A DNA stretch of 37,568 nucleotides from Bacillota bacterium (lineage in GTDB: Bacteria; Bacillota; Clostridia; Christensenellales; Pumilibacteraceae). How positions within the stretch are numbered: the first letter of the stretch is position 1; every line of letters begins with the position of its first letter. Shown here piece after piece: positions 11,088-35,520 of the stretch. The notes beneath the pieces were generated by a model that was not told the DNA's origin, ran no database searches, and worked only from the letters and a program-made list of their open reading frames with translations. A program made the translations under genes and the position numbers. The DNA is taken from positions 1-37,568 of the forward strand of contig WQVM01000007.1 of the NCBI GenBank assembly GCA_009783985.1, in the 5' to 3' direction.

Positions 11088-11250
11088 AAGGATAATTATT
11101 GTTCGGGCGGTCGAGGGCGACTGCCCCTACGATTTGTATCCGTGCTACACTTGTTTTTTCAATTGTAATCGTATTCCAAGTCGTAGGGGCGGAGGCCCTC
11201 AGCCGCCCGCTGTCTATTTCGCAAAAGGTCTAATGCCCGCCCCTACGATA
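11088..11250. repeat. G-family palindromic repeat cluster
   Basis: In the 448-bp gap between rpsU and spoIIIAA. AAGGATAATTATTGTTCGGG leads into CGGTCGAGGGCGACTGCCCC. After about 45 bp comes GTCGTAGGGGCGGAGG, and then GCCCGCCCCTACGAT. At least three arms of the G family are combined here. Confidence 0.85.
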
Positions 11251-11283
11251 TAAAAACTTGCAAAAACTCTAAGCCTCTATAAT

Positions 11284-11373
11284 GTCATTGCGAGGAGCGA
11301 TAGCGACGAAGCAATCCCATGTGAAATGTCCTATTCGTGGGATTGCTTTGTCGCTATCGCTCCTCGCAATGAC
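11284..11373. repeat. F-family palindrome (GTCATTGCGAGGAGC)
   Basis: A long near-perfect inverted repeat, about 35 bp per arm. It opens GTCATTGCGAGGAGCGATAG and closes with the complement CTCCTCGCAATGAC. Close copies lie at 21288-21377 and, diverged, at 35190-35298. Fragments lie at 9581, 12828 and inside spoIIIAE. This word is widespread in many bacterial genomes. Confidence 0.9.
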
Positions 11374-11438
11374 AATCAATTTGTATTCAACACAAATTGA
11401 GCAATCCGTTACATGACAGGCTGTGCTAAGTTCTAATC

Positions 11439-12490: not shown

Positions 12491-12830
12491 GTCATTAGGC
12501 ATTGTTCAAAAGGAATGGAAAACAATCCTTATAGGAAATAGTCATAAAGTAAATTATATTCCCAAAAAACAGGGTGTCATTTCGACCGAAGCGGAGAAAT
12601 CTCCTTAAAAACTGTATTATAACACCGCTAATGAGGAGATTTCTCCGCTTCGGTCGAAATGACACCCTTATGATATATACCTCACACAATATACTCGTTT
12701 TGAACAATGCCTCTTAAAAAGAGGGGAATAGAGATAGCTTTGAATCCAAATTCCCCTCTTTTAAGAGGGATGGCGGCACAGCCGACGGGGTGTTTATTAC
12801 GAGGTAAGCATTTTCCGAACAACTCTATTG
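12491..12830. mobile_element. Composite MITE-like element with palindromic cargo (H and J)
   Basis: The left end GTCATTAGG (12491-12499) leads into AGGCATTGTTCAAAA, whose exact complement is at 12698-12712. Inside is the H palindrome (12571-12668, GTGTCATTTCGACCGAAGCG on one arm). Then come a TTAAAAAGAGGGGAAT/ATTCCCCTCTTTTAAG pair and GGATGGCGGCACAGCCGACG. The right end is AACAACTCTATTG (12818-12830), followed by an F fragment. The same end sequences bound the element at 34142-34359 around a different palindrome. It encodes no protein. The rest of the 488-bp gap holds only the CTTGTCC motif. Confidence 0.6.
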
Positions 12831-15865: not shown

Positions 15866-15894
15866 TTGACAATGCATAGTATATATGATATAAT
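15866..15894 (+). promoter_or_regulatory. Promoter of the 16029 lipoprotein
   Basis: TTGACA at 15866-15871, 17-bp spacer, TATAAT at 15889-15894: a consensus sigma-A-type promoter. The 5' leader is about 128 nt. The 72 bp between the spoIIIAE stop and the promoter show nothing recognisable. Confidence 0.88.
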
Positions 15895-15938
15895 TAGTAC
15901 ATAACTTAATAAAATTATGTCGCTGTAAAAGAGTGGCT

Positions 15939-16024
15939 AAAAGAGGGTGCCCTCTTTTATTTATGTAATAGCTTACATAAATAAACATATTGATTAAGTC
16001 AAAATTATAAAACAAAGGAGTAAA
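15939..16024 (+). promoter_or_regulatory. Two-hairpin lipoprotein leader, copy 1
   Basis: Hairpin 1 is AAAAGAGGGTGCCCTCTTTT (15939-15958). Hairpin 2 is ATTTATGTA/TACATAAAT with a 6-nt loop (15959-15982). Then come ATATTGATTA (15987-15996) and AAAGGAG. The order and spacing match the leaders at 17782-17911 and 23054-23127. Confidence 0.7.
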
Positions 16025-16028
16025 TCAA

Positions 16029-16439
16029 ATGAAAAAGAAACTAATGTCCATAGCCATTGTATTGGGATTAATATTATCTGCGGGTGCATTCGTAGTCGCT
16101 TGTGGTGGTGGCAACAATGTAACCTTGGCTGATCTAGAGGGCGAGTGGAGGCTTGAGCGTTTTCACATTAGTGGTACAACAACGCCAACATGGCTGTCAT
16201 CAATTACTTTTGATAATGAGGGCAACTTTACAGGTGTTCTTACTATCGGTGGCGGAGAGGTCACTGGAACAGCGACACTTGATGGCAGAAGAATCCGCTT
16301 TAATAGCAATCTTCCGGAAAAAAATGCGTGGTTTTCTACTTACGACTATAGAGTCCGCTTTGTAGGCAACAATATGCAGTGGGACTGGCATTCGCTCGGA
16401 AGCCGTCAAAATACAGCATTTGTTTGGAACAGAGTATAA
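16029..16439 (+). CDS. Small lipoprotein with lipocalin-like domain
   Basis: 136 residues. A type II signal peptide (KKKLMSIAIVLGLILSAGAF) is followed by VVAC, with the Cys at about residue 25 as the lipidation site, and then GGGNN as a linker. The mature part (LEGEWRLERFHISGTTTPTW, ITFDNEGNFTGVLTIGGGEV, TGTATLDGRRIRF) is a run of beta strands starting with a GEW motif, as in lipocalin-like stress or surface proteins of Clostridia and Bacteroidetes. Ligand is unknown. Shine-Dalgarno AAAGGAG lies 8-10 bp before the ATG. It has its own promoter, a structured leader and a terminator at 16458-16495, so it is monocistronic. Confidence 0.8.
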   Translation: MKKKLMSIAIVLGLILSAGAFVVACGGGNNVTLADLEGEWRLERFHISGTTTPTWLSSITFDNEGNFTGVLTIGGGEVTGTATLDGRRIRFNSNLPEKNAWFSTYDYRVRFVGNNMQWDWHSLGSRQNTAFVWNRV

Positions 16440-16457
16440 TAAAAACACCTAAACAAA

Positions 16458-16495
16458 AACAACTTCCCTTACTTTTTTGGGGAGGTTGTTTTTTT
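16458..16495 (+). terminator. Terminator of the 16029 lipoprotein
   Basis: AACAACTTCCC pairs with GGGAGGTTGTT and is followed by T. The 11-bp stem includes one G-T pair. Confidence 0.88.
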
Positions 16496-16502
16496 GTGAT
16501 AC

Positions 16503-16700
16503 AGTAAGCCACCGGTGAGCTGGTGGTTCTAAAAAGCTTTAGTTATGCGTTTTGAAAAAAAGCTTCTCCTTTGGTGGAATGTAGTAGATAGCAAAACCAC
16601 ACACCATGTAGTATTTGCGCCGAAGTATAGACGGCAAATAATATACGGAAGGTAAAAAATGAGATAGGCTTGATTCTGACGCTGATGGCTGTGTTTCGAA
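16503..16700 (+). mobile_element. Degenerate IS200/IS605-type element
   Basis: A subterminal-type hairpin AGCCACCGGTGAGCTGGTGG (16507-16526) precedes a relic of the small Y1 transposase. ATG 16545 reads MRFEKKLLLWWNVVDSKTTH then HVVFAPKYRRQIIYGR, the conserved N-terminal block of TnpA with its HVVF.PKYRR pattern, and stops at 16653-16655. KNEIGLILTLMAV continues after a frame slip. The HUH motif and catalytic Tyr region are gone. It is too short and broken to move, and it abuts the 3' end of the M23 gene. Confidence 0.75.
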
Positions 16701-16702
16701 TA

Positions 16703-17668
16703 CTATAAACCGACAGCCACCCGATTTTTTTCAAGTAGTCTAGTAATAGCATATATATCAATCCAAATTTCTTTAGAGCCTTTTTCTTGGGAGGGGTGGA
16801 ATATTAGTTGTAATCCTAGGTGGAGGTGGGGTTTGGCGTTTGGCATATTTTTGTTTTCTTTATTTGAGTAGCCGCTAACTCCGAGATAGCCGATATGTTG
16901 ACCTGCGGTGACTTCTGAGCCTAATTCTAGACCTTGTGCAAAGGGAGAATCTTTGCGGAGGTGGGCATAATAGTAGTAGCGCTTGTTGTCGTGAGAGCGT
17001 ATTCCTACCCGCCAACCGCCGTAGCGATTCCAACCGATTTCGGTGATTATACCGTCCTCAATAGCCATTATGGGTGTGCCTACAGAGCCAAATAAGTCGT
17101 GCCCCAAATGACGGCGTTTGTAGCCGTATGACCTAGCAACTCCAAAGTCATTAGAGTGATTGTAGTAGCGACCTTTGGCGATAGGGTGGGAGGCAATAAG
17201 TCCGTATTTGCCCTCGGCGGTAGTTCCCAAAAACTCTGCAAAGATGGTTTGATAAACCTCCAAGTGATACTTGTAATATTTGTTGCCACTCATTATCTCG
17301 TCCAAATTTTCGCCTGCTTTGAGGCGGGTGGCTATCTTGTCAAGCTCTTTGACATCTCGTTTTGAGCTAAAAAAATTGCCGTTTTTGACCGATATATAAG
17401 CCAAAAGTTCGGGCATTTTGAGATGAACATCCTTGCCGTATGTGCTTACATCGTACTGATACGCTTTGGCAAGGACAGCATAAGAGACATTAAAATCAAC
17501 CCACTTTATATGGTTGGTTTCGGGCAAGGATTTTGGCGGCTCGGTGTGAGGTGCAGGGGAGTGACAGTAAGAAGCCTCTACAAAAGGAGCCTCAGGAAAA
17601 AGCGGCTTAGAGGTACAACCCCCAAACAAAAGAATAACTAACAACCCAATCAGCACAAAAAGTTTCAT
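16703..17668 (-). CDS. M23-family (LytM-type) metallopeptidase lipoprotein
   Basis: 321 residues from ATG 17668. An upstream ATG at 17728 is in frame, but the later one starts a clean lipoprotein signal (KLFVLIGLLVILLFGGC, Cys 18). A proline-rich spacer and a helical region precede the C-terminal M23 zinc endopeptidase domain. Zinc ligands are H187 and D191 in RRHLGHDLFG and the second His of HLHLG (281-285). A GWNRYGGWRVGIRSHDNKRY core is typical of Clostridia M23 proteins. All ligands are present, so it should cut peptidoglycan peptides at the cell surface. It stands alone on the minus strand between two lipoprotein genes; an IS200 relic touches its end. Confidence 0.88.
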   Translation of the reverse strand: MKLFVLIGLLVILLFGGCTSKPLFPEAPFVEASYCHSPAPHTEPPKSLPETNHIKWVDFNVSYAVLAKAYQYDVSTYGKDVHLKMPELLAYISVKNGNFFSSKRDVKELDKIATRLKAGENLDEIMSGNKYYKYHLEVYQTIFAEFLGTTAEGKYGLIASHPIAKGRYYNHSNDFGVARSYGYKRRHLGHDLFGSVGTPIMAIEDGIITEIGWNRYGGWRVGIRSHDNKRYYYYAHLRKDSPFAQGLELGSEVTAGQHIGYLGVSGYSNKENKNMPNAKPHLHLGLQLIFHPSQEKGSKEIWIDIYAITRLLEKNRVAVGL

Positions 17669-17713
17669 TTGTGTAGTATGAGTAAAATATACAAAAAAAT
17701 TCATTAAAAATGC

Positions 17714-17743
17714 TTGACAGTAGTACAAAATATATGATATAGT
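17714..17743 (+). promoter_or_regulatory. Promoter of the 17923 lipoprotein
   Basis: TTGACA at 17714-17719, 18-bp spacer, TATAGT at 17738-17743. The leader is about 173 nt. It diverges from the M23 gene, whose start is 46 bp away. Confidence 0.82.
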
Positions 17744-17781
17744 ATATACATAAGGGAAAACTCTTTTTTCAGAAAATCGTC

Positions 17782-17911
17782 TAAAAGGGGTACCCCTTTT
17801 ACTTTATTTAGTAAGGATAATCACTAAATAAAGTAAAAGGGGTACCCCTTTTACTTTATTTAGTAAGGATAATCACTAAATAAAGTAAAAGTATTGATGA
17901 TTATCAAAAAA
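17782..17911 (+). promoter_or_regulatory. Two-hairpin lipoprotein leader, copy 2, with a 52-bp tandem duplication
   Basis: Hairpin 1 AAAAGGGGTACCCCTTTT (17783-17800) is followed by hairpin 2 ACTTTATTTAGT/ACTAAATAAAGT with a 10-nt loop. The whole unit is repeated perfectly with a period of 52 bp (17782-17833 and 17834-17885). Then GTATTGATGA (17891-17900) and AAAGGAG follow. Confidence 0.8.
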
Positions 17912-17922
17912 AGGAGAAAAAA

Positions 17923-18585
17923 ATGAAAAAGAAAATTATAACCCTATTAGTCATTTTGATAATGGCTATGGCAACTGTTGCTTTTGTCGCTTGCGATGAC
18001 ACTGCTGGCGGCGGTGGCGGCGGCGGTGAAACACCAAGACTTGGAACCCCCACCAATGTGACATTTAGTGTCGCTACGGGAGGAAGACACTATATCAATT
18101 GGACACCTGCCACACCAGCACCGCCAACAATTGAAGTGCTTGGAATTGATTTTAGAATTTATGCTGACGGCGAATTCGTGACTCAAACAACTGCAAGCAG
18201 ATACAATATTGGTAGCACAGTTTTTGCTGGCACAGATCCAGTTGAATTTACAATTGTAGCAAATCCTCGAATTACTACACATTTTCAAAGTTCATTACCT
18301 AGTGCACCGGCGACATTGACAAGAACACCACTTGCAGCACCTACTGGCATTAGAACATTGACAACAAATCTAACATGGACTAATCCGTCAACTCCAGCAC
18401 TTGGCAATTGGCCGACACGAATCTATGCCGATGGTGAGTTTGTATTAGAGCACACGGGTTCGATATTTCCAATTGCCTCATTAGGCTTGCCAGCAGGAAC
18501 CCATTCAATTACAGTTGCTTTGGCAGCGAGAGGTCCTCATCTACAAAGTCCGCAAAGTATTGCATATAATCTTACTATTGCTTAA
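17923..18585 (+). CDS. Lipoprotein with two fibronectin-like repeats
   Basis: 220 residues. The type II signal KKKIITLLVILIMAMATVAF runs into VACDD (lipid Cys about 27), followed by a flexible Gly-rich linker (GGGGGGG). Two similar beta-sandwich-like modules of about 90 residues follow, each with ITW/INWT-type strands and a shared IYADGEFV motif (about residues 80 and 167). The pattern resembles fibronectin type III or Ig-like modules. It is probably exposed at the cell surface; its binding partner is unknown. A strong AAGGAG precedes the ATG. It is monocistronic, with a terminator at 18610-18646. Confidence 0.78.
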   Translation: MKKKIITLLVILIMAMATVAFVACDDTAGGGGGGGETPRLGTPTNVTFSVATGGRHYINWTPATPAPPTIEVLGIDFRIYADGEFVTQTTASRYNIGSTVFAGTDPVEFTIVANPRITTHFQSSLPSAPATLTRTPLAAPTGIRTLTTNLTWTNPSTPALGNWPTRIYADGEFVLEHTGSIFPIASLGLPAGTHSITVALAARGPHLQSPQSIAYNLTIA

Positions 18586-18609
18586 AAGCATAATTTGAAT
18601 ATAATCACA

Positions 18610-18646
18610 AAAAAAGAGATTTGACTTATGTCAGACCTCTTTTTTT
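18610..18646 (+). terminator. Terminator of the 17923 lipoprotein
   Basis: An AAAAAGAG.TTTGAC stem pairs with GTCAGACCTCTTTTT, TTAT loop, followed by T. Confidence 0.8.
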
Positions 18647-18700
18647 GTAGCCATTTCAAAAATCTAATCCTTGTATTGTTTCTTAAAAGAAATAATTAGT

Positions 18701-18813
18701 CACCTAGTGTGTAGGCTGTCGCCCTTGACCGCCCGAACATCCTTATCCATATAGTTTAATAAGGATAATTATTATTCGGGCGGTCGAGGGCGACAGCCCC
18801 TACAACTAGGTGA
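18701..18813. repeat. G-family palindrome, complete
   Basis: GTCACCTAGT at one end and ACTAGGTGAC at the other. Inside, the arms TAGGCTGTCGCCCTTGACCG and CGGTCGAGGGCGACAGCCCC face each other around AATAAGGATAATTATTATTC. It is the cleanest full palindrome of the family and separates convergent transcripts. Confidence 0.9.
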
Positions 18814-18885
18814 CTATATTGCAGATGATTTTCAGTCTTAGCAGGTAGCCCCACAAAAATTGTTGGAATAAGTGGTAAAAAACTA

Positions 18886-20691
18886 TTACTTGCTAGTTTC
18901 GCTTTTCTCAAAGTCGTCTAGTTCTTTGAGCCATACTTCGCCGCTGAAGTCGGTTTTGATTTGTAGGTTGGTTAGGTCGTGGGGGGTGATTTGTATGCCG
19001 TCGCAGCCGAAGAGTCGTTTGAATTGTTGGGAGAAAAATCGGGTTAGGAATTTTCGCATTGTGGCTAGTATGACCTTGCGGTCGTATTCGGGATATGCGG
19101 TGTAACATAGGTTGATAGTATCCGCTACACCATGTTGCTTGCAAATCATATAGTAGAGGAAAAAGTCGTGTAACTCGTAAGGTCCGATTTCTTTTTCGGT
19201 GTCTTGATTTTGCTTTAGTTCGGGAGATATGGGTGTGGCTAAGATGTCGGTCATTACGGCGGATATTTTTTTGTCAGTTGTCGGCTTAGTAGCGTAGTGC
19301 CTAAGATACGCACGGATAAAAGTTTTTGACAAAGAGGAGTTAGGGTTATATTGTGCTAGTTGGTCACCGCCGTAGGTACTCCAACCCAAAGCAATCTCAG
19401 ACAAATCCCCCGTGCCCAGCACCAACGCTCCGTGCATATTGGCGAGGTCGAGTATGATTTTGGTGCGTTCACGGGCTTGAGTGTTTTCGTACGCTATATC
19501 CGCCTTGCCGTTGTGACCTATGGCTTTGAGGTGCGTAGTAACAGCATTGGTAATAGGTATGTCTAAACCGGTGACACCGTAGAGTTTGATTAGCTTGTCA
19601 GCGTTGTTAGCGGTACGACTGGATGAGGCAAGCCCGCCCATTGTTACACAAATAATATTTTTTGGCGAGAGCTTATATTTTTTTGCCATATGGGCGCAAA
19701 GACAAAGAGTCATTGCCGAGTCAAGTCCGCCTGATAAGCCAAAAATAACTTTGGTGACATTGATATGCTCCATACGACCCTTGATGCCACGGACGAGTAT
19801 GTCCATAGCCTCATCAAAGTGGGCAGGGTTAGTTGGCACATAGGGTAGGCGAGTAGTAGTGGTTAGTGGATAGTGGATAGTGGATAGTTGGGGGTTGAGG
19901 GGAGGTGAGTTGCTAGCGGTAAGTTGTAAGTTACTTACTGTAATTGGTAGGTCATCGCCTGTTGATGCGGATATGATATGTCCGTTTTGAGCAAAAATCT
20001 TATCGCCGCTGTATACGGTATTGCTCACGCTCATTCCCGCTCCGCCGCTAACATACGCATAAGTGCAGCCTAATTCTTGTGACATATGAGCAATTTTTGA
20101 TTGACGATTATCAAAAGAACCTATCAGAGCTTGTGATGCCCCTAGATTGATAATAAGGTTAGTGCCATTTTGGACGAGCTTAAGAGAGTGGGGTGTAGGG
20201 CTATCAAAATCTTCTCCAAAAACAACCCCTAAACGGGTCTTGTCTATGTCAACAATTGGATAGTCAGTAATAGGGACAAGTGTATCGCCTATAACAATAT
20301 TTGTCTTAGGGAAAGTTTCGCCGTGTTGCTTGTCTATAGTTAGCGCAAGTACTTTACCGTTTTTTATAAATGCCGCCATAGTGCGGATTTGGTTATCACA
20401 GCTGTTATCAATTATCTCTATAGGTAATGACAAAATAACAAGAGCATTATGCTTAGTGTTTTGAGCGGTCAAAGTTTCTAGTGCCAGATGGCAACTTTTT
20501 TGAAAATCACCAAAATGCCCCATATCCTCTGCAAAACCGCCCGAGATACATAACAAAGGCAGAGCGACAATACTTGCGCCTGCTTTAGTAGCGTCTGTTA
20601 TCGCTTTGGATATAGTGTCCGTATTGCTGATTACAGCACCCAAACGCAAATTAGGGGTAGCTAAGGCTATTTTTAATTGACCTGATTTCAT
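18886..20691 (-). CDS. nadE: NAD synthetase with degenerate glutaminase domain
   Basis: 601 residues. The C-terminal half (about 290-600) is the ATP-pyrophosphatase-type synthetase that amidates nicotinate adenine dinucleotide. The P-loop is FGLSGGLDSA (SGGLDS at 320-325), followed by GTGDLSEIALGWSTYGGDQL, and all key blocks are kept. The N-terminal half is a nitrilase-fold glutaminase, but its catalytic residues are lost. The usual FPELC block is LPLLC (Leu 46 for Glu) and the usual ICED block is FGED (Gly 159 for Cys). The enzyme likely uses ammonia. Residues about 264-280 in the linker are encoded by heptamer repeats. Promoter TTGCCA-18-TATAAT on the minus strand (20729-20700) leaves almost no leader. 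Confidence 0.93.
   Translation of the reverse strand: MKSGQLKIALATPNLRLGAVISNTDTISKAITDATKAGASIVALPLLCISGGFAEDMGHFGDFQKSCHLALETLTAQNTKHNALVILSLPIEIIDNSCDNQIRTMAAFIKNGKVLALTIDKQHGETFPKTNIVIGDTLVPITDYPIVDIDKTRLGVVFGEDFDSPTPHSLKLVQNGTNLIINLGASQALIGSFDNRQSKIAHMSQELGCTYAYVSGGAGMSVSNTVYSGDKIFAQNGHIISASTGDDLPITVSNLQLTASNSPPLNPQLSTIHYPLTTTTRLPYVPTNPAHFDEAMDILVRGIKGRMEHINVTKVIFGLSGGLDSAMTLCLCAHMAKKYKLSPKNIICVTMGGLASSSRTANNADKLIKLYGVTGLDIPITNAVTTHLKAIGHNGKADIAYENTQARERTKIILDLANMHGALVLGTGDLSEIALGWSTYGGDQLAQYNPNSSLSKTFIRAYLRHYATKPTTDKKISAVMTDILATPISPELKQNQDTEKEIGPYELHDFFLYYMICKQHGVADTINLCYTAYPEYDRKVILATMRKFLTRFFSQQFKRLFGCDGIQITPHDLTNLQIKTDFSGEVWLKELDDFEKSETSK
19854..19905. repeat. Family C heptamers inside nadE
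   Basis: On the plus strand, GTGGTTA/GTGGATA/GTGGATA/GTGGATA/GTTGGGG/GTTGAGG. The same unit forms the palindrome at 8503-8608. In nadE it encodes NPQLSTIHYPLTTT in the linker between the two domains. Confidence 0.85.
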
Positions 20692-20699
20692 TAGATTTA

Positions 20700-20767
20700 A
20701 TTATACAGTATAGCTTGTGTTTTTGGCAAGCCATTTGCTTGACTAATATTCCAATTTGTTGTAAAAT
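20700..20767. promoter_or_regulatory. Back-to-back promoters of nadE and rplI
   Basis: Minus strand: TTGCCA (20729-20724), 18 bp, TATAAT (20705-20700), 8 nt to the nadE ATG. Plus strand: TTGACT (20739-20744), 17 bp, TAAAAT (20762-20767), 6 nt to the rplI ATG. Only 9 bp separate the two -35 boxes. Neither start has a Shine-Dalgarno. Confidence 0.8.
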
Positions 20768-20773
20768 ATATGT

Positions 20774-21220
20774 ATGAAAGTTATATTTAAGCAAGATGTA
20801 GCAGGGCAAGGTAAAAAAGGCGAGGTCAAGGAAGTTAGTGACGGATATGCGCGTAATTTTTTGTTGCCTAAGGGATTGGTTGAGATAGCGTCAGCAACGG
20901 CGGTTAATAATGCTAAGTTAGCCAAAGAATCTGAGGTACACAAAAAGGCTGTGGCTAAAGCCGAGGCGGAGGCTCTTGCCAACAAACTTAACCAAATCAA
21001 AGTTACAGTAGAAGTCAAGGCAGGCGAAAGCGGTAAGCTGTTCGGTTCACTTAATACTCAAAGCATAGCCGACGCTTTGGCAACACAAGGCACTGTCATT
21101 GATAAGCGGTCAATTGTGCTTGCAGAGCCTATCAAGCAAGCGGGAGTTTATAAAGTAACAGTCAAGCCTTATGCCGAAGTGTCTGCTAAGATAACGGTTG
21201 AAGTAGTCGCTAAGAAATAG
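20774..21220 (+). CDS. rplI: 50S ribosomal protein L9
   Basis: 148 residues, the exact family length. The N-terminal rRNA-binding domain, [20 protein letters not shown] then [15 protein letters not shown], carries the L9 signature. A long connecting helix ([20 protein letters not shown]) joins it to the C-terminal domain with [16 protein letters not shown]. It binds the L1-stalk base of the large subunit. The ATG is 6 nt after the -10 box with no Shine-Dalgarno, so translation is predicted from a leaderless or 1-nt-leader mRNA. In many Firmicutes rplI sits beside dnaB, rpsF or a DHH phosphodiesterase; here it is alone and followed by a terminator. Confidence 0.97.
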
Positions 21221-21253
21221 TGTTTAGTGAATAGTTGTTGTTAAATATATTTT

Positions 21254-21284
21254 AGACTTGTCGAATATCGGCAGGTCTTTTTTT
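21254..21284 (+). terminator. Terminator of rplI
   Basis: AGACTTGTCG pairs with CGGCAGGTCT (two G-T pairs), 5-nt loop, then seven T. A short family C-like heptamer fragment (TAGTGTT/TAGTGAA/TAGTTGT) lies at 21219-21241, between the stop and this terminator. Confidence 0.9.
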
Positions 21285-21287
21285 AAT

Positions 21288-21377
21288 GTCATTGCGAGGA
21301 GCTTTAGCGACGAAGCAATCCCACGAATAGAACACTTTACATGGGATTGCTTCGTCGCTTTCGCTCCTCGCAATGAC
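21288..21377. repeat. F-family palindrome
   Basis: GTCATTGCGAGGAGCTTTAG to CGCTCCTCGCAATGAC, arms of about 35 bp, near identical to 11284-11373. It begins directly after the T-run of the rplI terminator. Confidence 0.92.
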
Positions 21378-21429
21378 ATTAGCCCTAAGGCTCGCTATAG
21401 CTTAATGGAATTAGGGAGTAATACATAAT

Positions 21430-21540
21430 TAATTAAGCGTTCCTTTTGTGACACTAACAAGCATTGCTCCATAGTATGGTAAGGAATAGGGAGGAGGTCT
21501 CCCTAGTTTTTTCAGTCGATTTGTAGATGGATTGACTGTA
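21430..21540 (+). promoter_or_regulatory. Structured region before murA with internal terminator
   Basis: TTCCTT (21432-21437) can pair with AAGGAA (21481-21486). AGGGAG/CTCCCT (21488-21493, 21499-21504) with AGTTTTTT forms an intrinsic terminator. CAGTC/GACTG (21513-21517, about 21534-21538) forms a third hairpin before the ribosome site. No convincing promoter was found upstream. It could be an attenuator or a small RNA; in this 337-bp gap the remainder is the L9 terminator and the F palindrome. Confidence 0.45.
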
Positions 21541-21557
21541 GTACATAGGAGAAATCA

Positions 21558-22820
21558 ATGCAAAAGAAGATTATAATTGAGGGGGGACGCCGTTTGGAGG
21601 GCAGTTGCCGTATTAAGGCGGCTAAGAATTCTGTGCTGCCTATTTTGGCGTGTACTGTGCTGTGTAGCGGTGAGGTAAGATTACATAATTGTCCTAATAT
21701 CAGCGATATACGGGATATGTTGGAGATTCTTAGAAGTCTTGGAGCTAAGGTAAGCACACACGGGATTATTTCGGGGGATATAACTATTGACTGCCGTTAT
21801 GTGGATAAGACGGCGGTTACAGGGGATTTGACATCGGCGATACGGTCGAGTATTTTTCTTTTAGGACCTATTGTGACAAGGTTTGGGCAAGGTATTGTCA
21901 GTAGTCCGGGGGGGTGTCAAATCGGAAGCAGACCTATTGATATTCATTTGGACGGACTCAAGGCATTAGGTGTTGATATAGATGACCAAAATTGCCTAAT
22001 ACGGTGCAGTGTAAAAACAGGAAAACTTGTAGGCGGTGATATCCGACTTAAAATGCCCAGTGTAGGAGCTACCGAAAATCTTATGATGGCAGCGGTGCTT
22101 GCAGTTGGCAGAACAGTAATAAGTAATGCGGCAAAAGAGCCGGAGATAGTCGACCTAGCTAATTTTATAAATGCTATGGGCGGCAATGTGCAAGGGGCAG
22201 GAACGAGTGAAATTGTCATTGACGGAGTGGACGGACTTGTAGGGGGTGACTTTACTCCTATACCTGACCGTATTGTTGCAGGGACATATATGATTGGGTG
22301 TGCTATGTGTGGCGGTTGTGTGCGTTTAGAGGGAGCGAATTTGGGGCATTTGGGTGCACTACAAACGGTGTTAGAAAAAACAGGTGTGGGGGTGTTTGGC
22401 GATAGCAATCATATTATTGTTGAGAGCAACGGAAACCTTATAAGTCCGGGAAGAATTGAGACGGAGGTTTATCCAGGGTTTGCGACCGATTTGCAGGCAC
22501 AACTGATGGCGATGCTTGCGGTAACAAAAGGCGAAAGTATAATTGTAGAAAACCTTTTTGAGACACGATTTAGACACGCCGAAGAGCTAACAAAAATGGG
22601 TGCGGATATAGATGTAGTCAACAAGTCGGCTATTATTAAGGGCGTAAAGAGGCTTGTAGGGGCAGAAGTGAACGCTTTTGACCTAAGAGGCGGTGCGGCA
22701 ATGGTCTTAGCAGGGCTTGCGGCTAATGGCACAACAGTAGTCAGTGATGTGCATTATATCGAGCGTGGATATGAGAACATTGTTGGAGATTTGAGAGGAC
22801 TGGGGGCGGAGATAAAATAA
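21558..22820 (+). CDS. murA: UDP-N-acetylglucosamine 1-carboxyvinyltransferase
   Basis: 420 residues, the normal MurA length. First committed step of peptidoglycan synthesis: transfer of enolpyruvate from PEP to UDP-GlcNAc in the cytosol. Motifs: RLEGSCRIKAAKNSVLPILA with the conserved Lys-Asn pair. The catalytic Cys is C120 in SPGGCQIGSRPIDIH, equivalent to Cys115, so the enzyme should be fosfomycin-sensitive in type. Further blocks are VGATENLMMAAVLA and the C-terminal DLRGGAAMVLAGLAA. Shine-Dalgarno AGGAG lies 8 bp before the ATG. It is preceded by a terminator-containing structured region and followed directly by a G-family palindrome. Confidence 0.97.
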   Translation: MQKKIIIEGGRRLEGSCRIKAAKNSVLPILACTVLCSGEVRLHNCPNISDIRDMLEILRSLGAKVSTHGIISGDITIDCRYVDKTAVTGDLTSAIRSSIFLLGPIVTRFGQGIVSSPGGCQIGSRPIDIHLDGLKALGVDIDDQNCLIRCSVKTGKLVGGDIRLKMPSVGATENLMMAAVLAVGRTVISNAAKEPEIVDLANFINAMGGNVQGAGTSEIVIDGVDGLVGGDFTPIPDRIVAGTYMIGCAMCGGCVRLEGANLGHLGALQTVLEKTGVGVFGDSNHIIVESNGNLISPGRIETEVYPGFATDLQAQLMAMLAVTKGESIIVENLFETRFRHAEELTKMGADIDVVNKSAIIKGVKRLVGAEVNAFDLRGGAAMVLAGLAANGTTVVSDVHYIERGYENIVGDLRGLGAEIK

Positions 22821-22834
22821 AAGAAGAAAGAAAA

Positions 22835-22949
22835 AGGATAACTATTATTCGGGCGAACAATGTTCGCCCCTACGACGGGATGTTCAACTGCACTAGAAAA
22901 TTCAATCATAGGGGCTGGCATTGCCTGCCCGAATAATAATTATCTTTAT
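22835..22949. repeat. G-family palindrome
   Basis: AAGGATAACTATTATTCGGG, GCGAACAATGTTCGCCCCTA and, on the far arm, GGGGCTGGCATTGCCTGCCC then GAATAATAATTATCTTTA. The two outer arms pair. The 316-bp gap from murA otherwise holds the promoter and leader of the next lipoprotein. Confidence 0.85.
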
Positions 22950-22982
22950 ATTAAAAACAATCAATCCATATGACAAAAATGC

Positions 22983-23011
22983 TTGCTTTTGTTAGGTTAA
23001 TATGATAATAT
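22983..23011 (+). promoter_or_regulatory. Promoter of the 23137 lipoprotein
   Basis: TTGCTT at 22983-22988, 17-bp spacer, TAATAT at 23006-23011. It is weaker than the promoters of the other two lipoproteins of this type. Confidence 0.6.
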
Positions 23012-23028
23012 AAATATATACACAGTTC

Positions 23029-23127
23029 AATTTGACTAAAGTCAAATGCGTTCAAAAAGGGTACCCTTTTTGGTTTCTTGCTACTTGTTGCAAGAAACCA
23101 GTGTATAAAAAATATTGATTATAGGAG
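23029..23127 (+). promoter_or_regulatory. Two-hairpin lipoprotein leader, copy 3
   Basis: An extra hairpin TTTGAC/GTCAAA (23031-23046) comes first. Hairpin 1 is AAAAAGGGTACCCTTTTT (23054-23071). Hairpin 2 is GGTTTCTTGC/GCAAGAAACC with an 8-nt loop (23072-23099). ATATTGATTA (about 23112-23121) and AGGAGAG follow. Confidence 0.72.
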
Positions 23128-23136
23128 AGCAATCAA

Positions 23137-24255
23137 ATGAAAAGAATTTCAAAACTACTGGTCGTTATTATGCTTGCATGTGCTATGGGTATAAGTGTAT
23201 TTGCATTGACAGCTTGCGGTGGTAATGACGGTAATATCCCTATCCCTAATCCGGGTGACGGGGCTAATGTTAATCTAGGCAACGAGCGTGGTGCAATAAG
23301 CCTTGAAAGAATCGAGGAGCTTATTATAGGCTGGGTAGACCTAGTCGAAGAGGGCGGAATGACAGACTTTTCGGCTTATCATAGGGCAGGTAGGCTGTCG
23401 ACTGATTTTGCGATAAGAGGTAACGAAGCTATTGCGGGAGGGATATTTATTGGTTATTGCGGTGAGGAGGATTGCTATTATTGTTATAATGATGAGTGTC
23501 ATTATGACGAAGATTCAGAGATGAGTTTGTACTGGCGTAACGGAGTTGCTTACGAAAGAGAGGGGGAAAATAGATTTGTAATATTTGGTGAACAAGCTGA
23601 CCTGCAAGCAATGGTCAAGGATGTATTGTCAGGGGATTTGATGGATATAGCTTATGACTTTAGATATTATTACGAATATCTGTTTGAGGAGTTTGAGATA
23701 GTCGGAACAGAATATGCACGAGGCTACAGGATTACAATTACAGAGATAATAGATTGTGACGAGTGTTGTTCTATTTATTATTACGACGAGGCAATGTCTA
23801 TTGTTATTGCCTTTGCTAGCAACGGAAGGCTTTTGGGTGTGACAATGTCCGCATCAGAATGGGAATATGATGATTTTGGGGCTAGTTATGTGACTTTGAG
23901 TATAGTTTGGAATAGACCTACTCTAAACTTCCCTAATGATTTGGGTGGCTTTTTGAGACCGTCAGCGGATAGTGTAATAGGTATAGAGTTTCTAGAGACA
24001 TGGTGGAGTTCGGCGGTCGTAGGTGATAGCAGGTGGGTTGACACACGCTTGGATCTTGACTTGGGTGATGACGAGCCTTGGCACTGGACATGGGACAGTG
24101 CGATCTTTGAGGCAAGTAATGGCAATGTTATTATAGAATCATTTGGTGACATGGCACGACTTACCTTTGTAGCAGAGGGAGAAGTAACAATTACAGCAAG
24201 AAGTGTTGTTAATCCTGCGGTATATGCTACTTTAGACCTTACTATAACAGCGTAA
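23137..24255 (+). CDS. Large acidic lipoprotein with Cys cluster and Ig-like end
   Basis: 372 residues. The type II signal peptide ends in LTACGG (lipid Cys about 27). The middle domain (about 50-260) is rich in acidic and aromatic residues and resembles the LppX/DUF6612-type lipid-binding lipoproteins in layout (YWRNGVAYEREGENRFVIFG). It contains CGEEDCYYCYNDECHYDED and later DCDECCSIYYYDE, unusual for an exported Firmicute protein. The C-terminal 90 residues look like a bacterial Ig-like (Big-2) domain, ending VNPAVYATLDLTITA. It is probably at the cell surface with unknown ligand; metal binding by the Cys cluster is inference. AGGAGAG precedes the ATG; its own terminator is at 24285-24323. 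Confidence 0.75.
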   Translation: MKRISKLLVVIMLACAMGISVFALTACGGNDGNIPIPNPGDGANVNLGNERGAISLERIEELIIGWVDLVEEGGMTDFSAYHRAGRLSTDFAIRGNEAIAGGIFIGYCGEEDCYYCYNDECHYDEDSEMSLYWRNGVAYEREGENRFVIFGEQADLQAMVKDVLSGDLMDIAYDFRYYYEYLFEEFEIVGTEYARGYRITITEIIDCDECCSIYYYDEAMSIVIAFASNGRLLGVTMSASEWEYDDFGASYVTLSIVWNRPTLNFPNDLGGFLRPSADSVIGIEFLETWWSSAVVGDSRWVDTRLDLDLGDDEPWHWTWDSAIFEASNGNVIIESFGDMARLTFVAEGEVTITARSVVNPAVYATLDLTITA

Positions 24256-30000: not shown

Positions 30001-30067
30001 TTGACACAGGTCTAAAAGGTATGTATAATATTAATGTTAAAGTATACATTTATACCTTTATGTATAC
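30001..30067 (+). promoter_or_regulatory. Promoter and 5' hairpin of the surface protein
   Basis: TTGACA at 30001-30006, 17-bp spacer, TATAAT at 30024-30029, a consensus promoter. The leader contains the perfect hairpin AGTATACAT/ATGTATACT (30041-30068) and ends in AAGGAG. An inverted pair GGACAAG (29958-29964)/CTTGTCC (29987-29993) flanks the region just upstream of the -35 box and may be an operator. Confidence 0.8.
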
Positions 30068-30093
30068 TGTATTCTAAGGAGTAAACCAAAACA

Positions 30094-33000
30094 ATGAGAA
30101 ATTTGAACACAAAAAAGCTAAAAACTTTGACATACGGGGTTATGGGCTTTTTGCTAAGCATTGCGCTTGCTATCGGAGCATGGAGCTGGTTGCCTATCGC
30201 TAGAGTATCGGCTGCACCTGCTACAGGTCCATCAGTTAGCCTATCGACGGCAACATCTTTTAACTTGCCCGAAAGAAGAGCTTTTGGTGGTTCTGTGGTT
30301 TTTGATGCTACAGAGTTTGCAGGTATGGAGATAGAAGTTACTAAGCCTAGCGGAGATACTGAGGCTTATGACCCGGGTGATACATTGCACCTTAACCAAA
30401 TCGGCACATTTAATATACGCCTTAGCCGTGGCGGTGCATTTTTCCACGAGTTTAATGTAGTCAGCTTTTTGAGAGATGAGCCTATTCTTTTTATAGAGCA
30501 AAACGGTGCAGGTGTTCCAACAATAATGGAAGTCGATGGCACTATGTCAAATTTGCCTACAACAAGCTGGGCTGATGTAACTAATTGGGACTATGTGGAC
30601 GATAATTGGCCACAAGCTCGTTTGGTATACATTGACGACAACGGCAGAGAGCATCCTATCCGTGACGGAGCTAATAACCCTATTGAGGTCAATATTAGAG
30701 CTATGGGTTCTAACAACATTGATAATGTTGATAGAGATACAGTATTTACTAATCAAGGCAGAACATGGATAGAATTTTATGCCCAAATAGGTGTAGATAG
30801 CGAGGGTCTTGCAGGCAAGGTGCTAAGCCAAGACTTTGAGGTATCTATCAGACCTACTTTTAATCCAACAGAGCCACCCCGTATTACAGTTGTCGGTGTG
30901 CCTGCTACAGCAAGCATTCGTACAAGAGTAACTTTGCCAGTGGCTACTGCAACAGACCTTCATGATACAAGGATAAGATTTGATATTGAGGTGCGTGACC
31001 CTAACGGTCGTTTGGTAACACAACCCGGTAGAGATAGTATTTGTAGAGATACAGACTTTGTATTGGCTTATCCTGCAGCAGTTGAGGGAATAGAGGGCGA
31101 AACTGCCGAACAGCGTGCTCAGCGAGCAGGCTTTACCAATAACCCAGTAAGATTTGATAATGACCGCAACAGACATTTTTATCCGCATATGAATGGTGAC
31201 TTTATTGTAACCTTTGTAGCTATCAATCATTTGGGTATAAGAAGCACAGTTAGGACAAGCCGTATAACTGTTTCGGACAGAACAGCCCCTACATTTGTAG
31301 ATATTGAAGATTGGCGCATTCCTACCGAGTGGGGACGCACTAATGTAACAAATGAAGCAGGAGCGAGTGTCGGCACACAAATATTGATACCTGTTCCTAC
31401 AGTTGTTGACAACTACACTGAGACCCCTACAGTTGAGCTTATTATCCGTAACCCGCAAGGAAATGATGTAATAAGATTTGGCAATATCAAGGCAGAGGGT
31501 GTTTCTGCACGCAATGCGGATTATCATAACCTTGCGGCAGGCGGTATTGCAGGCGGAACAACACAAACTATTAGATATTGGCTACAGACAGCGGCAGGTA
31601 CATTTGCTGAGTCAGCTTATGATGTAGACGGTGCTGTAAGAGGCTTTTTGTTCAACCCGGCTTTGTATGAGCCATTGGATACTGTCCGCAACAGCATTAC
31701 AGGAATGTTTGTTGTAGAATATCGTGCAAGAGATGCTGCAGGTAATATCGCTACCCAAAGATTTAATATCGATATAAGAACAGCCTTTACAGACGATACT
31801 CTGCCTACTGTCAGAATCCCAGAGATGCCGTCTTTCCTAACCTTTAATACCGATGCACCAACTTCTTTTGTTATCCCGCAACCTATTGTGAGTGACAACA
31901 GTGCTACTCGCCTAAGAGTGCAATACCTTATGAGCGTAGGTGGTGTATATGTGCTTGTTAACGGTGGTGAAAGAATGATACTTGACGGTGCGACACTTAG
32001 CTTTGACCCTAACACTGTTAGTCGTGGCTTAGCTATTGTTACAAGAAATGCTACAACAGGTGCTATTACTGTCGTCAATGAGCTAATTACAGACGAAGAG
32101 ATTCGTAACCCTCGTTTTGGTGGCAACCTAATCCCTTACGACGAGATTAGTTTTAGACTGACAGCATGGGACAGCGTAGGTAATTACCGTTATGTAAGTG
32201 ATGACAACAGACCTATCATCAGAATGGCTGACCAAAACGATGCAGGTAGTTTTACGCTTAACAGCACTCATACTATTAACGCAAGACAAACCGGAAATGG
32301 CGATAGAGTAGAGCTAAGAAATAACTTTGCTGTTGATGCAAACGGTGTTTATAATAATAGATTTGTCACCCCGATATTTAGCATTGGTGGGCTAGCAGAG
32401 GGTGACAGACTTACAGGCTTTGAGGTTGCTATCTATGAGCAACGCTACAATGAGGACGATAACGACTGGGATACCCCTATCAGAATAAGAGAGCAGGATG
32501 TAATATTCCGCTTTATCCAAAGTGGCACTTCGCCGGCAATCAACATTTACGAAATTAGCTATACACCTAATATTGGTAATGTTGCAGGCAACCTAGGTCG
32601 TAACAACCATATTAACAACCGTATATTTATATCTGTAAGAGCTTTTAATGCTAGTGGCGACAACCAAGTTGCTAGAATTGCACTAACTGGCATACAAGCT
32701 CGCTTTGACGGAAGTAATGTTGGCGGTGGATCATCAAATGTCAACATCAATATGCCGTCTAACCTAGCTGTAATGACTTGGACAGACATGAATAATAATT
32801 GGTTCTATGATAATGCAGGAGCAATTGAGAGCTATATCCTAAGAAGAATTGAATCTAACGGATTCTTTAGCGTAATGGGCAATAGATTCCGTGCAAGCAC
32901 AACAGGCTCATTTAATATTTCTTACTTCCGGGATACTGTTACTAATCTTAACGATCGTGGTGCTATTGCAGCTGCCCATACAATAACTGTAAATAATGCC

Positions 33001-34141: not shown

Positions 34142-34359
34142 GTCATTAGGGTTGTTACGAAACCCCAAAGTGGGATCTGTCATCCTGAGCGAAGCGAAGG
34201 ATCTAGCGAAGCGGAAAATGCAGGGACTTGCAACTTTTTAAGGGTTTTTTACTCGCTAACGCTAGATCCTTCGCTTCGCTCAGGATACCTTCGGTGCTTC
34301 GTAGGACAAGACCAATAATGTTTTATCGTCCAATACAGGGTTTCGTAACAACTCTATTG
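34142..34359. mobile_element. MITE-like element with palindromic cargo (I family)
   Basis: The left end GTCATTAGG (34142-34150) leads into GTTGTTACGAAACCC (34151-34165), whose exact complement is at 34338-34352. The right end is AACAACTCTATTG (34347-34359). Cargo is the palindrome ATCCTGAGCGAAGCGAAGGA (about 34182) facing TCCTTCGCTTCGCTCAGGAT (34267-34286). End sequences match the element at 12491-12830. A G-family hairpin follows at 34382-34414. No protein is encoded in this 417-bp gap. Confidence 0.6.
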
Positions 34360-35189: not shown

Positions 35190-35298
35190 GTCATTGCGAG
35201 GAGCATAGCGACGAAGCAATCTGCCAAAGACAAAAAAGTAGTTTGTACGCCAAATATGAATTTTTCTAGGGCAGATTGCTTCGTTCCTCGCAAAGACG
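35190..35298. repeat. F-family palindrome, diverged
   Basis: GTCATTGCGAGGAGCATAGC and GAAGCAATCTGCC face GGCAGATTGCTTCGTTCCTC around a 45-bp centre unlike the other copies. The arm has point changes (GCAAAGACG), so it is probably an old copy. Confidence 0.82.
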
Positions 35299-35347
35299 AT
35301 AGTGGCTCTAGCGTTGACACACCACAAAACTTAATCAATACCCAAGC

Positions 35348-35520
35348 GTAGGGGACGCCGCCTTCGGCGTCCCGAATAGGTAATAATCAATTTTTTATAA
35401 TAAGGATAATTATTATTAGGGCGAGCAATGCTTGCCCCTACACTTGGATTATCTTGTGTAGATGTTTTCCTAAGTGTAGGGGCGGGCGTCCTCGACCGCC
35501 CGAATAACAATAAATCCTTA
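35348..35520. repeat. G-family repeat cluster
   Basis: A short hairpin GTAGGGGACGCC/GGCGTCCCGAATA is followed by AAGGATAATTATTATTAGGG with GCGAGCAATGCTTGCCCCTA. A third arm is GTGTAGGGGCGGGCGTCCTC GACCGCCCGAATAA. Together with the F palindrome, these fill the 436-bp gap between the DUF421 and asparagine synthetase genes. Confidence 0.85.

Follow-up and report, generated by a model that had tools for sequence, protein, structure and literature searches.

A conserved palindrome and an abutting, locus-specific hairpin in the 5′ leaders of lipoprotein and other exported-protein genes

According to works cited in PMC3997798, stem-loops at the 5′ ends of the ompA, papA and aprE mRNAs are established stabilisers, and the ompA 5′ untranslated region (5′UTR) has two protective elements. 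Here we describe a double-hairpin leader, made of a conserved palindrome (P1) and a hairpin abutting it (P2), which stands before three lipoprotein genes in contig WQVM01000007.1 of assembly GCA_009783985.1, an uncultured, gut-type Bacillota bacterium of the Pumilibacteraceae; the window that we analysed is this whole stretch of 37,568 nucleotides (nt). The pair keeps a fixed, transcription-linked orientation, the genes that follow it mostly encode exported proteins, the sequence of P1 is constrained, and the leader belongs to no known RNA family. The stabilisers of Escherichia coli (ompA, papA) and Bacillus subtilis (aprE) are alike in being hairpins near the mRNA 5′ end, before the Shine-Dalgarno (SD) sequence, often of mRNAs for abundant exported proteins. 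They differ from the leader described here, in which P1 has a conserved palindromic sequence and P2 begins immediately where P1 ends. We know of no primary sequence common to the ompA, papA and aprE hairpins.

The antitermination leaders of LoaP, a NusG paralogue (dfn, mln), likewise place a small factor-recruiting hairpin in a 5′ leader in Bacillota; in their case the hairpin loop is UNCG, and long biosynthetic operons containing internal terminators follow (PMC12691694). The leaders studied here instead have a palindromic tetranucleotide as the loop and, for the most part, genes for lipoproteins or other exported proteins as targets. LoaP antitermination was rejected on loop type, the P1 centres being GTAC, CATG, TATA, ACGT, ATAT, GTGC and GGAC and not UNCG. 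Intrinsic terminators and attenuators share the A-tract, G+C core and T-tract shape of P1, whereas P1 has only two to four G-C pairs, a short T-run that is paired, a promoter upstream and a start codon downstream, and P2 is virtually without G-U pairs. Repetitive extragenic palindromic (REP) sequences and REPINs are also short palindromes dispersed in one genome; REPs are mostly found as extragenic repeats linked to RAYT transposases, whereas P1P2 has a fixed position and orientation relative to promoter and gene. Finally, template-switch hairpins (PMC8794818, PMC8604942) have the same perfect arms, arm homogenisation and spacer inversion (here GAA/TTC). Template switching explains the perfection of the stems, but not their place beside P1 before exported genes.

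Architecture of the three window leaders

An earlier sequence-only reading of the window had claimed a two-hairpin leader before the genes at 16029, 17923 and 23137, and this arrangement is present as claimed. In all three leaders P1 is a near-perfect palindrome, AAAAGG(G)NNNNCC(C)TTTT, and P2 is a longer hairpin of locus-specific sequence that abuts it directly, with the last one to five bases of P1 common to both; the order of elements is promoter, P1, P2, TATTGAT, SD and lipoprotein gene.

15866-15894, + strand: sigma-A-type promoter TTGACA-17-TATAAT of the 16029 gene, 12/12 consensus bases
15938-15959, + strand: P1, TAAAAGAGGGTGCCCTCTTTTA, centre GTGC
15956-15985, + strand: P2, 13-base-pair (bp) stem, loop TAGC, abutting P1
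15988-15994, + strand: TATTGAT box after P2
16029-16439, + strand: lipoprotein of 136 amino acids, lipobox VVAC, no Pfam family
17714-17743, + strand: promoter TTGACA-18-TATAGT of the 17923 gene, 11/12 consensus bases
17782-17801, + strand: P1 copy a, TAAAAGGGGTACCCCTTTTA
17796-17839, + strand: P2 copy a, 17-bp stem, loop AAGGATAATC
17834-17853, + strand: P1 copy b, exact tandem duplicate
17848-17891, + strand: P2 copy b, 17-bp stem, loop AAGGATAATC
17892-17898, + strand: TATTGAT box
17923-18585, + strand: lipoprotein of 220 amino acids, lipobox FVAC, no Pfam family
23053-23072, + strand: P1, CAAAAAGGGTACCCTTTTTG
23071-23100, + strand: P2, 11-bp stem, loop TACTTGTT
23113-23119, + strand: TATTGAT box
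23137-24255, + strand: lipoprotein of 372 amino acids, lipobox LTAC, no Pfam family

The promoter that had been claimed for each leader is clear for the 16029 and 17923 genes, whereas the third leader has only a weak sigma-A-like one. The three lipoproteins have no Pfam match and no similarity to one another outside the signal peptide, in good agreement with the claim that they are otherwise unrelated exported proteins. Folding z-scores of the leaders are -3.9, -10.2 and -4.6 (genes at 16029, 17923 and 23137, respectively), and the window contains seven P1-like sites where 1.2 are expected. The middle leader carries its 52-bp P1P2 unit twice in exact copies, a duplication absent from the sequence-only reading. 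Exact tandem duplication was seen at six loci (window positions 17782-17891, L028, L041, L113/L129, L130 and L244), always as two copies; the copy number may reflect strain variation or an influence of the assembly. The window also encodes the sporulation proteins SpoIIIAC/AD and SpoIIIAE, which points to a spore-forming organism; together with the relatives found, these genes suggest that it is Clostridia-like.

Recurrence in the same genome and in other bacteria

The genome of origin (G000; 1.6 Mb in 110 contigs, 88% complete, the window being its contig C7) was surveyed over 1.07 Mb, window included, on both strands. We used a rule-based structural scan and not an Infernal covariance model; P2 was not alignable by MAFFT. 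The scan sought a palindrome or a hairpin with a four-base loop, with arms of at least 7 bases, followed directly by a hairpin of at least 8 pairs. Over the first 433 kb the P1 sequence was free except for two required G or C, and later scans demanded GG or GGG in the P1 arm. Nearly all matches, the first 433 kb included, belong to one family, which besides the three window leaders has the following loci:

L023, position 7576
L028, position 8076, tandem
L036, position 3497
L041, position 15052, minus strand, tandem
L042, position 18264
L044, positions 17585 and 16497, minus strand
L068, position 18435, minus strand
L069, position 14370

Among the members found in G000 the GTGC of the P1 at 15938-15959 is the only non-palindromic centre. 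Genome-wide, the pattern AAAAGGN{4,6}CCTTTT occurs 13 times, each time as a perfect palindrome, and its reversed control once. Genes were called in a simple way and a pair was counted if it lies at most 260 nt upstream; by this count P1P2 precedes 9 of the 42 lipobox genes of the surveyed 1.07 Mb but only 2 of the 895 others (odds ratio 122, p 1.6e-11). A tenth lipoprotein gene with the pair, at L042, is missed by the lipobox pattern, and the two non-lipobox targets are the permease of a sugar ATP-binding cassette (ABC) transporter, with its binding protein next to it, and an FGGY sugar kinase. Since the pair was found at 9 of 42 lipobox genes, the leader marks a subset (about a quarter) of the lipoprotein genes of G000 and not all of them. 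Searching the same genome thus yielded further copies that are linked to lipoprotein genes and promoters rather than scattered, as the sequence-only reading had anticipated. The TATTGAT box was rejected as an element-wide feature: TATTGA follows P2 at 7 of 12 G000 loci and is not general beyond this genome; taken over all sites, it is enriched after P2 (6 observed against 0.9 expected).

At L044 (15826-17660, minus strand) two adjacent lipoprotein genes encode different proteins behind leaders that are 87% identical. The likeness extends well past P1P2, through more paired segments up to the SD, and the full-length leader match is unique to G000 among 101 genomes searched.

Within the bacterial family, copies of GGGTACCC occur only in G000 and in two genomes of one other genus (G053 and G058), where they precede lipoprotein genes (a glucanase of glycoside hydrolase family GH16 and Ig-like surface proteins), some of them in tandem. 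Matches to AAAAGGN{4,6}CCTTTT in relatives are mostly chance except in these three genomes, and at the loci examined the lipoprotein genes of other sister-genus species have no such leader. A broad search with the exact P1 18-mer, AAAAGGGGTACCCCTTTT, across about 85,000 genomes found it in 50 stretches, predominantly of Clostridia, with single credible sites beyond them in Gordonibacter, a Streptococcaceae and a Tannerellaceae genome; a viral origin was rejected, the 18-mer being present in no viral contig. Among 391 sampled Clostridia genomes several copies were found only in G000 and one other, and the single matches in nine further genomes have non-palindromic centres and look like chance. 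The distribution of the leader is thus rare and patchy.

Site statistics were taken over 49 distinct non-tandem sites with the exact 18-mer. P2 lies on exactly one side of P1 at 40 of them, on both sides at none and on neither at nine, where the chance of a hairpin next to P1 is 0.33% per side (shuffled flanks); nine is about the number expected of chance copies of the 18-mer. The orientation is fixed, with P2 and the target gene both on the same side of P1. Promoters in the 110 nt before P1 were scored by how many of 12 consensus bases they match: 33 of the 49 sites reach a score of 9 or more, and the mean score is 9.24 against 7.37 for shuffled sequence, while downstream of P2 it stays near shuffle level (7.59 against 7.33). 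The -10 element ends 7-81 nt before P1. Because most sites have a good promoter before P1, P1P2 is predicted from promoter position to be transcribed and to lie inside the mRNA leader. A chance origin of the window leaders is excluded, because P1-like sites exceed expectation, the unconstrained scan yields almost only this family and P2 accompanies P1 at 40 of 49 sites.

An N-terminal hydrophobic segment of exported type is present in 25 of the 31 distinct downstream proteins in the same orientation, compared with 22% of 251 neighbour genes (p 9e-12). Solute-binding proteins are among these targets, as are MBOAT, a TonB-dependent receptor and Ig-like proteins; other loci add a GDSL lipase, and many of the targets are solute-binding proteins or surface glycosidases. 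TnpB-like genes and an FkbM methyltransferase are the exceptions, joined at other loci by AraC, GH88 and GHL6 genes. A repeated, gene-oriented leader element tied to lipoproteins is therefore supported, by the 9/42 against 2/895 genes of G000 as well as by the exported-type targets; as for the proposed lipoprotein regulon, the lipoprotein link is strong, but sugar ABC permease, FGGY kinase, AraC regulator, GH88, MBOAT and TnpB genes are targets as well. The leader can be searched for by a simple signature, AAAAGG(G), a palindromic tetranucleotide and CC(C)TTTT with a stem abutting them, and it recurs sporadically before genes for surface and solute-binding proteins in other gut bacteria.

Bacterium 1XD42-1 has six P1P2 copies, most of them before TnpB-like genes (Cas12f1-like TNB domain) and one, L171, before an FkbM-domain gene, and Anaerotruncus colihominis DSM 17241 has one copy with a TnpB-like gene downstream. 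The leaders at these loci (L171, L181, L184, L186, L197, L203 and L213) are nearly identical, which suggests that TnpB-encoding insertion elements may carry the leader along.

Known RNA families and finer anatomy

Rfam 15 at gathering score gave no match in the window or in seven other carrier loci, and low-threshold matches were chance matches of miRNA and snoRNA families to the palindrome, with nothing credible among them. Because it is absent from Rfam and from the papers searched, the leader looks undescribed in Rfam and in the searched literature, the coverage of which is partial. A riboswitch-like role, which the sequence-only reading had also entertained, is not indicated by the sequence: we found no aptamer-like conserved core outside P1, and a closing helix that would form a three-way junction with P1 and P2 is weak. 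This helix is striking at L180, L170, L260, L195, L044 and the 17923 leader of the window, where it pairs the SD region. Over all sites, however, its mean z is -0.67, a partition-function test against shuffled flanks showed no significance (Wilcoxon 0.27, Fisher 0.046), and one earlier significance was inflated by shared G+C content; it was rejected as a defining feature. Weak terminator-like patterns were matched at all three window P1, but their T-run is paired in P1 or P2.

In four G000 leaders (the 17923 leader, L028 and L044 twice) the P2 loop is complementary to a stretch lying after P2 and before the SD, a candidate pseudoknot read from the sequence. At L044 it would pair GATAGCT with AGCTATC, and in the window its putative partners are:

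17868-17875, + strand: candidate 5′ partner, P2-loop segment GATAATCA
17898-17905, + strand: candidate 3′ partner TGATTATC, just upstream of the ribosome-binding site

Before an orthologous solute-binding-protein gene (L260; 71% protein identity), CAAGGGGGTACCCCCTTG and TTATCCCCACACAGTGGGGATAA stand in the same place, so that two abutting stems and their position are kept while P1, P2 and flank sequences have changed. Eight more distant orthologues are without this P1, and some of their 5′UTRs are strongly structured (L262, z -4.7; L265, z -4.1) while others are not. Since L260 keeps the stems and some distant orthologues have structured 5′UTRs, a structured leader may represent the more ancient condition, with P1 as a particular solution that has been used repeatedly.

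RNA or DNA, and what the leader may do

We tentatively favour, with somewhat less than even confidence, a 5′-proximal double-hairpin mRNA leader that acts as a stability or expression element. A sigma-A promoter, lying at a distance of between a few and about 80 nt, would drive transcription of the leader from upstream, which would fold co-transcriptionally into two abutting and probably coaxially stacked stems, the conserved P1 and, as P2, any near-perfect stem starting within a few bases of the P1 T-run. Like the ompA and aprE stabilisers, the double hairpin would block 5′-end-dependent decay (by RNase J, or by RNase Y entry), and slowed decay would raise and hold the expression of abundant exported binding proteins, glycosidases and other lipoproteins. 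Template switching, which makes and repairs perfect inverted repeats, would act on this selected hairpin pair and leave near-perfect, locus-specific stems. A strong hairpin near the mRNA 5′ end, as a stabiliser calls for, is what we find (7-81 nt from the -10 element; folding z -3.9 to -10.2). On this reading the working form would be RNA rather than DNA, and the effect would fall on mRNA life or translation.

A series of observations weighs against this explanation, beginning with the pairing itself. In the P1 alignment 6 of 9 pairs are altered on both sides, with a covariation score matched by none of 500 shuffles. Two of the six are central pairs, however, and the innermost cannot form in an RNA hairpin of this shape. 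The P1 centres are palindromic (GTAC, CATG, TATA, ACGT and ATAT; the exceptions are GTGC in the window and GGAC at L249, and a Tannerellaceae repeat with centre TGCA was excluded as a different family), whereas chance P1 copies without P2 have non-palindromic ones. P2 stems have essentially no G-U in about 850 pairs, a count that leaves out a false P2 call at the Tannerellaceae locus L235, sole source of three G-T, compared with 41 in 1891 pairs (2.2%) for terminator-like hairpins of G000 under identical scoring. Across six sister Oscillospiraceae species (L170, L172, L190, L193, L200 and L210) the P2 loop reads GAA in four and TTC, the reverse complement, in two, the flanks being nearly identical otherwise; these loci make up a natural series of loop inversions. 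P2 without G-U together with a palindromic P1 centre indicates a constraint or an origin at the DNA level. Replication template switching is reported to perfect hairpin arms and to invert spacers, and it can create and maintain RNA hairpins (PMC8794818, PMC8604942); it is probably the mutational route by which pairing is maintained here. The sequence-only reading took differing arms with pairing kept as the mark of a functional RNA. Given the near absence of G-U from P2, the palindromic P1 centre and the loop inverted between sister species, covariation shows that pairing is maintained and is not proof of RNA function; textbook covariation confounded by DNA template switching is a caution for RNA-motif discovery. 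Apart from pairing, a pure stabiliser does not need a conserved GGG-palindrome-CCC sequence, P1 in G000 often lies 40-50 nt from the -10 element and not at the extreme 5′ end, and the exported-gene bias is left unexplained, since a stabiliser of general effect would be expected to act for abundant cytoplasmic proteins too.

A conserved P1 sequence that a stabiliser does not explain suggests recognition by something, and thus other readings. A dedicated protein could read P1 or the P1/P2 stack (or a ligand could, in a pseudoknotted subset) and switch translation or termination of a lipoprotein and nutrient-uptake regulon. The GGG/CCC core and A/T arms of P1 are conserved across unrelated leaders, the G000 targets look like a regulon, P1 scores as a weak terminator-like hairpin, and the candidate pseudoknots of four leaders differ in a compensatory manner (GATAATC/GATTATC, GATAGCT/AGCTATC). 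The closing helix is significant in a few leaders, among them that of 17923 with its pairing to the SD, but weak when all loci are taken together (Fisher p between 5e-4 and 0.05 in the different tests); moreover, P2 loop and flanks vary between loci, P1 lacks the UNCG loop of LoaP-type hairpins (PMC12691694), the taxonomic spread is very patchy, and no partner gene is known, no search aimed at regulator genes having been made. On balance we find this reading unlikely.

Decidedly unlikely, to our mind, is that P1 serves as the DNA operator of a dimeric regulator (a roadblock or repressor just past the promoter) with P2 as a second inverted repeat acting as DNA. This would account for a P1 that is perfect through its centre, unlike the chance P2-less copies, and shared by a gene set as an operator should be, for the lack of G-U in P2 and for a place just downstream of the start site. 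An operator has no need of P2, however, and a P2 that differs at almost every locus is unreadable by a sequence-specific protein, yet it always lies on the gene side of P1; a centre that is variable but always palindromic is unusual for an operator, and template switching accounts for perfect arms without any DNA function. We consider it very unlikely that P1P2 is a small palindromic element that moves or copies itself into sites downstream of promoters, whether REPIN-like, similar to a miniature inverted-repeat transposable element or borne on insertion elements that encode TnpB. The patchy occurrence, with several copies in just two of 391 Clostridia genomes, the TnpB-like genes that follow most of the six 1XD42-1 copies and the A. 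colihominis copy, and the tandem copies at several loci all fit such an element, but only P1 would be copied, P2 being different at nearly every locus; neither a target-site duplication nor an empty site was found, and an insertion element would not be expected to keep so strict an orientation or to favour exported genes.

A bolder and, in our estimate, unlikely proposal is that conserved palindrome and locus-specific hairpin form an undescribed class of 5′ leader that marks exported-protein mRNAs in several phyla, with a dedicated factor reading the paired or dimerised structure and coordinating surface-protein expression. Should the leader set mRNA life or answer to a factor, it would offer a handle on surface proteome control and a portable expression element.

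Other palindromes were met alongside P1P2. In the window, the leader at 30029-30093 of a 1310-amino-acid exported-looking protein at 30094 follows a promoter and consists of a single palindromic hairpin, AGTATACAT...ATGTATACT, without P1; its folding z is just -1.6. The genome of L183 (G108, Oscillibacter sp.) has 35 matches to the reversed control TTTCCCNNNNGGGAAA against 2 to AAAGGGNNNNCCCTTT, an unrelated abundant repeat, and in the Tannerellaceae genome G119 (L252, L253) AAAGGGTGCACCCTTT palindromes cluster at short intervals, apparently as a separate repeat family. Several families of REP-like dispersed palindromes (GTCATTGCGAGGAGC..., TTCGGGCGGTCGAGG..., ATCCTGAGCGAAGCG...) are numerous in the intergenic regions of G000 and lie at 11104-11374, 12571-12668, 18714-18798, 21284-21381, 34182-34286 and 35190-35500 of the window.

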